A program made the translations under genes and the position numbers. DNA of 40,883 bases, taken from positions 1 to 40,883 of the IMG/VR virus record IMGVR_UViG_3300033141_001770; one strand, given 5' to 3'. How positions within the stretch are numbered: the stretch's first letter is position 1; each line of letters opens with the position of its first letter. Source of the stretch: a virus. Shown one piece after another: positions 5,027 to 39,381 of this stretch. The notes under the pieces are model-generated. The model was not told the origin of the DNA and ran no database searches. It worked only from the letters and a program-made list of their open reading frames with translations.

Positions 5027-5649
5027 GTCCATTAAAATCTAAGAGACAGGCAGGAGGTTTCTACAGCACACCATTAAAGAAGTTCAGAGCACACTTTGAC
5101 GGGTATGAGGTGCAGGAACGGAAGGGACAGTTTGCTAAGGAAGGACAACAGGATGTCCTGTGTTCATTCTCCAAGCTGACTGTCATGGACAGCGACTCTC
5201 CTTATCCCTATGAGGTTGCTCAGATACTTCTCAAGTTCTCCGACAGTGTTAACTCTGCATGGTGCGTCCTTGAAGACTCCATTGCCAATGTTCTCGGCAA
5301 GAGTGTAGATGATGTTGCTATTGATGATATTGTTGGAATGGATGTCACCTGGGAACGAGAGGATGACCATCTCTTCTTCACTGACCGAGATGGCAAGGAG
5401 AGCAGAGGAACTGTGTGGAGAGTAGTTGAAGCTGGTGGGAGAGCAGCAGGTGTGAAGCCTTTTGACCGTGCTCTGGAAATCCTCGAAGGAAAGACCAGAG
5501 GTGAGTTTATTGGAGCGTCAGTTGCAGACCCGATTGTCCAGAGTGACAAGACTCTCCAGAATACAATCCTTACTGGTAGTTTCTTCGATGATGCTCGTGT
5601 GACAGACCTCTATACAGTAGAGAACGATGTCTATGTTCGTAAGCAGTAG
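5023..5649 (+). CDS. Conserved-looking protein of unknown function, 208 residues (possible ssDNA-binding protein)
   Basis: A soluble protein with a basic start (MSPLKSKRQAGGFYSTPLKK) and a middle part of alternating strands and turns (WEREDDHLFFTDRDGKESRGTVW). I do not recognise a family. Its place between the RepA-like ATPase and the recombination genes, its moderate size and the basic N-terminus would fit a single-stranded DNA-binding OB-fold protein, but no aromatic OB motif is obvious. It is the last gene before the large RNA region, and its stop codon marks the left limit of that RNA. Confidence 0.6.
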   Translation: MSPLKSKRQAGGFYSTPLKKFRAHFDGYEVQERKGQFAKEGQQDVLCSFSKLTVMDSDSPYPYEVAQILLKFSDSVNSAWCVLEDSIANVLGKSVDDVAIDDIVGMDVTWEREDDHLFFTDRDGKESRGTVWRVVEAGGRAAGVKPFDRALEILEGKTRGEFIGASVADPIVQSDKTLQNTILTGSFFDDARVTDLYTVENDVYVRKQ

Positions 5650-6360
5650 CTTCGCAGGACAGGAGAGGAGGTGATGTCAATTGACTGGGACACCGCTCCC
5701 AGATGAACTCCAGCTAACGGGTGCAGGGAGGGTAAAGGATTAACAACTGAATAATGCTGGTGGCACTAAAACTAGACCGCCAGAGTGCTTAAATGTCAAG
5801 GCGTGAAATGACAGCCAGCAAAAAGAAAGCTTGCTGGTGTCTAAAGGACAAGGGTTCAGCCCTAGTTACAATAATGTGCTAGACGGACTGCCGTTCAGCC
5901 TGAAAGCGGTTGCCAGCAGAAAGAGCTTGCTGGTGTCCTTCTTTGAGATAATTTATCGGTGGTAGGAGGGGAAGCTAACCGAGCCAGCAAGCCTGCCAGC
6001 TACCTCGGAAGGGAGATAGCTACCTGAGTAGAGGGAATCTACCCGCAAAGATGGGTCGTAGCAATACAATCGGAGAGAGTGGCTACTAGCTGGCAAGGAA
6101 AGCCTGAGCCGAAATCGGAGACTATAGCTCTGAAAGACCATAATGACTAAGTTGGCAGTAGGCTCAGGCAGCCTGAGCAGGTGGACAGCTTGAAAAAGGT
6201 AGCTGTTTTTAAATCTAGGTAGTGTTGGCAGGCTCAGATAAACCTGTGGGGTGAAAGGACAGAGGGAGGCAGATTATAAGCGGTGAGCTGCCAAATCAGG
6301 GTGGTATAGGTCGGATTAGCCCCACAGGGGTGAATAAAAAGCAGGCTTCAGGAAGGTAGA
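5650..6360 (+). ncRNA. Large ornate structured RNA candidate (about 700 nt)
   Basis: No long gene fits here on either strand, yet the stretch is full of perfect complementary pairs with purine-rich loops on the plus strand. Helices seen: 5696-5700/5726-5730; 5757-5763/5777-5783; 5794-5798/5809-5813; 5815-5821/5831-5837; 5887-5891/5906-5910; 5913-5918/5928-5933; 5995-6002/6087-6094 (8 bp); 6028-6032/6038-6042; 6103-6110/6161-6168 (8 bp); 6173-6178/6232-6237; 6185-6190/6201-6206; 6243-6251/6320-6328 (9 bp); 6268-6272/6288-6292. Size, complexity and position in a phage early operon resemble the ROOL and GOLLD classes of giant phage RNAs, but I cannot assign it to either. Group I and group II intron core motifs were looked for and not found. 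The exact ends are uncertain. Confidence 0.75.
5681..5743 (+). CDS. Possible 20-residue leader peptide at the 5' side of the RNA region
   Basis: A perfect AGGAGGTG site lies nine bases before a TTG that opens a 20-codon frame ending in ...GAGRVKD. The composition looks coding-like, and it lies within the first 100 bases of the RNA candidate, over the 5696-5700/5726-5730 helix. It could be a leader peptide that couples translation to RNA folding, or the remnant start of a gene displaced by the RNA. A second frame from the ATG at 5674 is only 10 codons. Evidence is thin. Confidence 0.3.
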   Translation: MTGTPLPDELQLTGAGRVKD

Positions 6361-6363
6361 GTT

Positions 6364-6624
6364 ATGAACACAGAAGAACTTATTGAGAAGTGCAGGCTGA
6401 CGAGGGATGAGATATATCAAATTTATGACAAGTTACATAGGGAGAATCCCCATTGGAGCCAGATACATTCCCAGCGTGATGCTGATATAGAGATTGCTGA
6501 AGCCCAGCTCCGCAAAGCTATCCCCATTATTCAGAAGATAGAATCAAAGGCTAAGCGAGAGCCTGTAGAGTTTACCGCAAGAACAGACGCAGAAGAAGAT
6601 GATGATAGGAGGGATGATGATTGA
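6364..6624 (+). CDS. Hypothetical helical protein, 86 residues
   Basis: First gene after the RNA region, with AGGAAGG before the ATG. Predicted mostly helical and ending in a very acidic tail (TDAEEDDDRRDDD). Not recognised. Overlaps the next frame by about 26 bases. Confidence 0.6.
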   Translation: MNTEELIEKCRLTRDEIYQIYDKLHRENPHWSQIHSQRDADIEIAEAQLRKAIPIIQKIESKAKREPVEFTARTDAEEDDDRRDDD

Positions 6625-10105: not shown

Positions 10106-10276
10106 ATGACTGGTTATTTTCTTGGACTTATTGGATGCTGGTTATTCTGTGATGGCTGGATGTCTATCTCTATTTATATTAACAGAGAAGGACAGACTTG
10201 GAAGAAAGACCATAGCATCCGAATTATCAGAGCTTTACTTGGTGTAGCTCTAATGGTACTAGGAGGTGTTGAATGA
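10106..10276 (+). CDS. Two-segment membrane microprotein, 56 residues
   Basis: GAGGAG upstream of the ATG at 10106. Two hydrophobic stretches (FLGLIGCWLF and IIRALLGVALMVLGGV) flank a polar basic loop (NREGQTWKKDHS), which suggests a small hairpin membrane protein. It overlaps the peptidase gene start (ATGA) and may be coupled to it. Function unknown. Confidence 0.6.
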   Translation: MTGYFLGLIGCWLFCDGWMSISIYINREGQTWKKDHSIRIIRALLGVALMVLGGVE

Positions 10277-10878
10277 AACCTAATAAGATTATATGGGGAG
10301 AGATAGTAGAACAGCCATCTACTGCTGAGATATTCAAAGAACCCTCTTATGTAGAGACAGTAGATAATCATATCTACTTCTACTCCACTGTAGGTAAAAG
10401 TGAGGTGCTACAACTTAACAGGAGACTAAGGGAACTGAACAATGAGTTGCTTCGTTCAGCAGGACTACAGAGTAGAGAACCAGCTTCTATATTCCTTCAC
10501 ATCAACAGTTACGGTGGTTCTGTTTTTGATGGTATGGCAGCGATGGATATGGTGCTCAGTTGTCAAGTTCCTGTAGTAAGTATTGTTGATGGTTGTTGTG
10601 CCAGTGCCGCTACCTTTATGTCTGTGGTAGCTGGAAAGAGGCTTATTCCTAAGCATGGCTTCATGTTGATTCATCAGTTATCTGCCTTTACTTGGGGCAA
10701 GTTTAGAGAACTTGAAGATGACCATATCAACTTTAACAAACTAATGGAAACGATTAAAGCAATCTATACAGAATACACCAAGATACCCGAAGACAAGATA
10801 ACTGAGATATTAGACCATGACCTGTGGTTTGATGCAGAACAATGCCTTGGATACGGTCTTGTAGATGAGATAATATAA
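10273..10878 (+). CDS. ClpP-like serine peptidase
   Basis: 201 residues of the ClpP/crotonase fold. The nucleophile is S111 in VDGCCASAATFMS, the catalytic histidine H134 is in GFMLIHQ, and the acid is probably D187 in the HDLWFDAEQCLGYGLVDE segment, which parallels the end of bacterial ClpP. In tailed phages such enzymes are usually capsid maturation proteases located between portal and capsid genes. Here the gene is in the early arm, about 14 kb from the capsid gene. A role in processing early or host proteins is therefore as likely as capsid maturation. It is unfused, unlike many head proteases. Confidence 0.85.
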   Translation: MKPNKIIWGEIVEQPSTAEIFKEPSYVETVDNHIYFYSTVGKSEVLQLNRRLRELNNELLRSAGLQSREPASIFLHINSYGGSVFDGMAAMDMVLSCQVPVVSIVDGCCASAATFMSVVAGKRLIPKHGFMLIHQLSAFTWGKFRELEDDHINFNKLMETIKAIYTEYTKIPEDKITEILDHDLWFDAEQCLGYGLVDEII

Positions 10879-39330: not shown

Positions 39331-39381
39331 TCTGTCCCTCCATTATTCTGTTGTTAAGGTGCTAACTAGGATAACACCTAG

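Follow-up and report, generated by a model that had tools for sequence, protein, structure and literature searches.

A modular, pseudoknotted RNA behind a boxA in a phage early operon probably represents a new class of large phage RNA

The window analyzed here, a 40,883-nucleotide (40.9-kb) IMG/VR virus record, contains within a phage early operon a stretch of about 700 nucleotides that, on balance, probably encodes an untranslated phage RNA, folded into several domains and outside Rfam, one that would be antiterminated from a boxA and probably acts as RNA. A first-pass annotation, made from the letters alone, had described an ornate noncoding RNA of about 700 nucleotides in the early operon, and covariation of its closing helices in homologues supports that description. 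The structured RNA held up, and its outline was refined to a boxA followed by a series of domains, each closed on its own, with shorter versions elsewhere. The observation stands far above chance because of conservation and covariation in other phages, not because of thermodynamics.

The gap runs from 5650 to 6363, between a 208-amino-acid gene that stops at 5649 and an 86-amino-acid gene that starts at 6364, which bears out the boundaries first given for the RNA. As had also been claimed, it holds no credible protein gene: the sole open reading frame of at least 50 amino acids is an antisense 62-amino-acid frame, for which a Pfam search returned no match. The GC content of the gap is 0.50, compared with 0.39 to 0.45 in most flanking windows (about 0.41 for the region), and its plus strand is rich in G and A (GC and AT skews both positive, about +0.2 each), in agreement with the A/G richness noted at first. 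Three helices that had been named are present in the letters, namely, GCCAGCTA (5995 to 6002) with TAGCTGGC (6087 to 6094), CCTGTGGGG (6243 to 6251) with CCCCACAGG (6320 to 6328), and GGCAG (6268 to 6272) with CTGCC (6288 to 6292). Compared with shuffled sequences, the fold energy of the whole gap gave z scores of -2.1 for the plus strand and -2.4 for the minus strand; with values this similar on both strands, fold energy alone is weak evidence for a structured RNA. When modules were folded individually, only the hairpins at 6102 to 6171 (z, -3.9) and 6239 to 6332 (z, -3.1) stood out.

Within the first ~90 nucleotides (5650 to 5739), for which no conserved counterpart has been found so far in relatives, a strong ribosome-binding site precedes a ten-codon frame, MSIDWDTAPR* (5674 to 5706). 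The frame looks like the beginning of small proteins that are common in phages, and it may encode a leader peptide or be what is left of a gene. A short frame with so good a ribosome-binding site might also be the first exon of a gene split by a group I or group II intron, but we find this scarcely credible: searches with RF00028 and RF00029 gave nothing at E ≤ 10 though their controls were positive, a second exon was not found downstream, and the homologues described below are intergenic and follow complete genes. Elsewhere in the window, a Clp-protease-like gene (10273 to 10878; best PHROG, head maturation protease) sits among early replication genes, with the structural genes far off on the other strand.

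Rfam searches of the window, at gathering and at relaxed thresholds, gave no RNA match, and among the homologues only an adjacent tRNA was matched. The first-pass annotation had suggested either a diverged GOLLD or ROOL RNA or a new class, and had proposed a scan with the covariance models for these two RNAs and for group I and II introns. Run singly, these models returned no match at E ≤ 10; GOLLD (RF02032), for which the conserved 3' half is the expected matching part, was searched for across the whole record. The size of the window RNA, its phage setting, its pseudoknots, and the tRNA-like neighbors seen in some relatives are all shared with GOLLD and ROOL, but both models were also empty for the homologues, and we consider a diverged member of either class very improbable. 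The search for ROOL (RF03087) is a weak test on its own, as the control genomes gave no match either and its sensitivity is unproven. It is the other half of the suggestion, a new class, that the lack of any Rfam match favors.

Close relatives of the flanking 208-amino-acid protein and of the DNA polymerase were not found in IMG/VR, and blastn with the region as query and 50,697 phage records as database gave matches of chance length only. Since the flanking proteins lacked close relatives, the terminase was taken as the entry point. Its alignment contained one 59%-identical relative first and then eight sequences, and a clade of fragments was recruited at 50 to 63% identity. One record of this kind, L010, was considered as another RNA insertion in the clade and rejected; its terminase large-subunit gene (L010:1511-2535) carries an in-frame, intein-like (LAGLIDADG-like) insertion of about 1 kb. 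Comparison of the window RNA with the terminase-clade records yielded short matches to several records, and these grouped around 5966 to 5992, which led to the core motif, and around 5740 to 5760, which led to the boxA. Loci L007 (= L181), L104, L116, and L182 share UGGUGUC...AUCGG...ACCGAGCCA, and the sequence of the closing helix differs by phage.

A tight initial version of the core pattern matched only the sister phage L007. A gapped pattern of three conserved blocks was scanned over IMG/VR and 85,000 bacterial and archaeal genomes, and in 28 of about 58 matches the closing helix was lengthened by at least 3 pairs past the fixed blocks, whereas random flanks predict about 5% (three). A second pattern, in which the next helix position was freed, added seven more loci with wholly different closing helices. 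Bases fixed by the pattern (GG/CC and UCGG/CCGA) were excluded as evidence. The homologue search and compensating-change test that had been proposed for this RNA thus produced a total of 38 core loci, with covariation in helix P1 and in domains D, E, and F. These loci fall into at least 18 phage groups, defined as sharing fewer than two proteins with each other, and span GC contents of 0.32 to 0.64; one locus per group was kept for independent tests.

Several candidates were set aside. In L208, L212, L213, L230, L240, L280 to L286, and L297, the closing helix was not extended, and these pattern matches are probably coding or chance, as are those in Caballeronia, Malikia, Acidobacteria, Gemmatimonadetes, and Rhodospirillales genomes. 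L195 and L199, which have the closing helix and lack the inner core, were left out of the core statistics. One further core, in contig 26 of a Dehalococcoidia metagenome-assembled genome (MAG) (G046), came solely from covariance model R1 (E = 9.7e-7); it lies between a ubiquitin-like gene and its neighbor, as in L182. A model match in G221 was rejected, as its inner sequence and context resemble coding DNA. In a survey of the host class, 2 of 393 genomes had a match and G046 alone was credible; therefore, the core is not a chromosomal host RNA. No core match was obtained among sequenced phage isolates and plasmids with blastn, which is insensitive to so short a motif.

The core, domain B (5925 to 5992, plus strand), has the consensus GGUGUCC..ACUAUCGGU..GGCGAAA..ACCGAGCC together with a closing helix and a pseudoknot, and it is defined by the 38 loci, by covariation in P1, by a permutation test of P3, and by covariance model R1. 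In the window, the closing helix P1 pairs GCUUGCUGG (5925 to 5933) with CCAGCAAGC (5984 to 5992), helix P2 pairs UCGGU (5956 to 5960) with ACCGA (5978 to 5982), and the pseudoknot P3 pairs CCUUC (5937 to 5941) with GGAGG (5965 to 5969), all on the plus strand. Across 18 independent groups, 93.5% of the six variable pairs of P1 form, compared with 51% for permuted 3' strands (reached in 0 of 20,000 shuffles); loci were kept partly for pairing, which inflates the first figure, though too little to explain the gap to the second. All freely varying positions of P1 covary. P1 appears, for example, as AAAUAUG/CAUAUUU, GCGGG/CCCGC, and UUCUCA/UGAGAA besides the GCUUGCUGG/CCAGCAAGC of the window, and the alignment of 30 loci (A3) contains 46 two-sided compensatory changes, compared with 18.9 ± 3.3 after shuffling. 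In P3, the CC.. that follows GGUGU pairs with the ..GG that precedes CGAAA. Because MAFFT misaligned the pseudoknot strand in A3, P3 was judged by permutation instead; its pairing exceeds that of permuted strands clearly over all loci (equaled in 2 of 20,000 permutations) and moderately over the independent groups (560 of 20,000).

The core occurs once per phage record. In 34 of 37 loci, the core shares its strand with the longest open reading frame just upstream, and in 13 cases the core begins no more than 15 nucleotides past the stop codon of that frame; no consistent downstream gene follows. In L207, L228, L238, and L233, an intergenic gap of 120 to 140 nucleotides holds the core alone, with or without a GC-rich hairpin. 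As a separate observation on gene content, L007 (1393 to 4249, minus strand), L182, and L278 have a row of genes resembling ubiquitin-like, E2-like, E1/ThiF-like, and JAB proteins, and in L182 and L278 the core falls between the ubiquitin-like gene and the next gene. With about 25 nearly invariant nucleotides, a compact pseudoknot, a freely varying closing helix, and an intergenic position, the core could be an RNA-processing, ligand-sensing, or self-cleaving element that acts on the polycistronic message between two genes. We consider this improbable, as Rfam holds no ribozyme or riboswitch that matches, the downstream gene is inconsistent, and several of the invariant bases were set by the search pattern itself.

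Around the core, the window RNA contains further domains, each on the plus strand and each with its own closing helix. Domain 0 (5755 to 5820; z, -1.6) is closed by UGCUGG/CCAGCA. At the same place, L263 has a tRNA-like domain, which ARAGORN reports as "tRNA-???" with a two-base anticodon and a defective anticodon loop; the window shares only its position and closing helix. In the window itself, ARAGORN found no tRNA, and no cloverleaf with a 7-nucleotide anticodon loop is present. By eye, related elements interrupted by large insertions can be recognized in L245, L226, L227, and L252, with partial support from relaxed ARAGORN settings, and L226 has a tRNA-Met after the core. Domain 1 (5832 to 5918), recognized by direct repeats D2 and D4 and by a UGCUGG/CCAGCA closing helix that is a tandem copy of that of domain 0, begins, as the core does, with GCUUGCUGGUGUC; for its interior, no homologue was found. 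Domains 0 and 1 are closed by the same UGCUGG/CCAGCA helix as B, with three tandem pairs between 5755 and 5989. These pairs could also form a mutually exclusive, shifted register of short CCAGCA..UGCUGG hairpins, and the alternative registers may possibly serve as a switch or for intermolecular pairing.

Downstream of the core, domain D (5994 to 6095) is closed by UGCCAGCUA (5994 to 6002) and UAGCUGGCA (6087 to 6095), a helix also present in homologues: the hairpin directly follows B in 10 other loci, with 5 compensatory cells and 96% of pairs formed. Domain E1 (6102 to 6169; z, -3.9), closed by GCCUGAGCC (6102 to 6110) and GGCUCAGGC (6161 to 6169), has counterparts with compensatory changes in 6 other loci. 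Domain E2 (6171 to 6237), seen in the window letters as GCCUGAGC (6171 to 6178) with GGCUCAG (6231 to 6237), is a probable tandem copy of E1. Domain F (6243 to 6328; z, -3.1), closed by CCUGUGGGGU (6243 to 6252) and GCCCCACAGG (6319 to 6328) with the form ..GGGGU/GCCCC.., ends just before the ribosome-binding site of the next gene. It also forms the 3' end of 9 other loci, where 97% of positions are paired, with 24 compensatory cells across the ten loci and a U-G pair at the top of the helix in 9 of 10. Compensations in D and E are fewer than in F yet consistent, and the permutation values for D, E, and F are lenient (optimistic), as these helices were chosen because they pair. Collectively, the comparative evidence shows B (its closing helix and P2), D, E, and F to be conserved as plus-strand RNA structure and the pseudoknot of B less strongly so.

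The order of domains in the window is boxA-0-1-B-D-E1-E2-F. Corresponding orders are boxA-tRNA-like-B-D-E-F in L263, boxA-B-D-F in L236, boxA-B-E-F in L248, and B-F in L214 and L252, while L238, L207, and L228 have essentially B alone. As read from these alignments, the order boxA-(tRNA-like/extra)-B-D-E-F-next gene is shown to be kept, with some phages missing domains.

The element that heads this order, TTAACAACTGAATA (5740 to 5753, plus strand), is the exact 14-mer of a boxA, the expected binding site of NusB-S10, and departs from the consensus in having AGGA in place of pyrimidines. In sister phages, promoter-like sequences are followed, at a distance of some tens of nucleotides, by (C)TTTAACAACTGAATA, which in several cases stands directly before the core; some sister phages have a boxA near promoters without a core. 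For the window RNA itself, no promoter could be placed. Upstream of the core, TTAACA was found within 38 nucleotides in 9 of 39 loci, compared with 0.37 expected. The 16-mer CTTTAACAACTGAATA, the sister-phage form, occurs in 6 of 294 genomes of the Dehalococcoidia class, the class to which the MAG with two cores belongs, and its reversed control in none. It is located in the leader of a 16S rRNA (L303) and of a CRISPR array (L300), and we therefore take the motif to be the boxA of the host. Identity with the host rRNA and CRISPR leaders shows, at the level of sequence, that 5740 to 5753 is a boxA, and the same sequence as in the host rrn leader stands here upstream of an untranslated RNA. The match also suggests that the host belongs to the Chloroflexota (Dehalococcoidia-like). 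In rRNA, boxA is a binding site for NusB/S10 and keeps Rho from terminating transcription (PMC5725501, PMC10250234), and it has been proposed to prevent Rho-dependent termination in CRISPR arrays too (PMC7862264). Two side observations concern this motif. In L299 and L301, an antisense CTTTAACAACTGAATA lies just 3' of the 16S rRNA and would pair with the leader copy, an arrangement suggestive of a leader-trailer helix that includes boxA in these bacteria. In addition, the window has a second boxA-like site, TTAACAACAGAATA (39344 to 39357, minus strand), in the gap before the minus-strand gene 39330-39001, where it is probably the leader of the other operon.

The boxA also raises the possibility that the element is purely cis acting, controlling antitermination or polarity in the manner of lambda nut (boxA plus boxB) or HK022 put, with domains that have no role as free RNA. 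Its boxA and structured domains would then act on RNA polymerase as it passes and so secure transcription of the genes that lie beyond an early gene. This is the strongest rival explanation because some phages keep little beyond the core between two genes. It would account for the quarter of loci in which a boxA closely precedes the core, for cores placed directly past a stop codon and ahead of the next start in the same operon, and for minimal versions of 120 to 140 nucleotides at one copy per genome. We nevertheless consider it unlikely: the size and variety of D, E, F, and the tRNA-like domain in the long forms exceed those of known antitermination RNAs, boxA is missing at many cores, and sister phages have a promoter-near boxA without a core.

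The reading that we prefer is an antiterminated RNA that acts as RNA. According to this model, RNA polymerase would leave the translated gene ending at 5649, and boxA would load NusB-S10, so that Rho would not stop it. The protected polymerase would cross the 700 untranslated nucleotides, with the downstream genes still expressed, while the domains would fold cotranscriptionally. The antitermination step draws on established Nus-factor biology, and the need to transcribe a long untranslated RNA is the same here as in rRNA operons and CRISPR arrays. Less certain is that the product would work as RNA through its nearly invariant core, the probable binding site of a factor that many hosts share, and that the remaining domains would be interchangeable add-ons. 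A broader reading, plausible although we hold it a little short of probable, is that of a widespread modular phage RNA class. Here, a universal pseudoknot core, either by itself or at the head of a series of closed domains that can be exchanged (tRNA-like, D, E, and F), would form a boxA-antiterminated noncoding RNA of the early operon. This RNA would act in trans on a host machine that many bacteria have in common, or its core would be catalytic.

To our knowledge, few large phage RNA classes exist, and none has an established function. The present results support a new class within the large phage RNAs; a published genome-wide compilation of RNA motifs from phages could already include it as a numbered entry. 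The class has strong covariation and natural versions of ~60 to ~700 nucleotides, its minimal core is short enough to synthesize and assay, and the host boxA is a built-in hint at its mode of transcription. Should the RNA act in trans, it would offer a counterpart to GOLLD and ROOL whose domains can be studied one at a time; should it act in cis, it would be an antitermination RNA of unusual complexity.

Among known systems, GOLLD and ROOL are large, ornate phage RNAs of 400 to 800 nucleotides with a tRNA association in some members (PMC12286853). Like them, the window RNA is phage encoded, multi-domain, pseudoknotted, and devoid of a protein frame, with a tRNA link in some members. However, it consists of separately closed domains that come and go, it lies in an operon behind a boxA, its minimal versions are about 60 nucleotides, and it matches neither Rfam model. 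With the boxA leaders of rrn operons and CRISPR arrays it shares an identical boxA 14-mer ahead of a long untranslated RNA, but here the operon is that of a phage and the structured RNA downstream is unrelated. Small pseudoknotted ribozymes and riboswitches likewise combine a compact pseudoknot and conserved loops with a closing helix that is free to vary, although none of their Rfam families matches the present core. Lambda nut and HK022 put are likewise phage RNAs of an early operon in which a boxA precedes a hairpin element; the core described here, however, is a pseudoknot of 50 to 110 nucleotides rather than a 15-nucleotide boxB, and it is accompanied by extra large domains.
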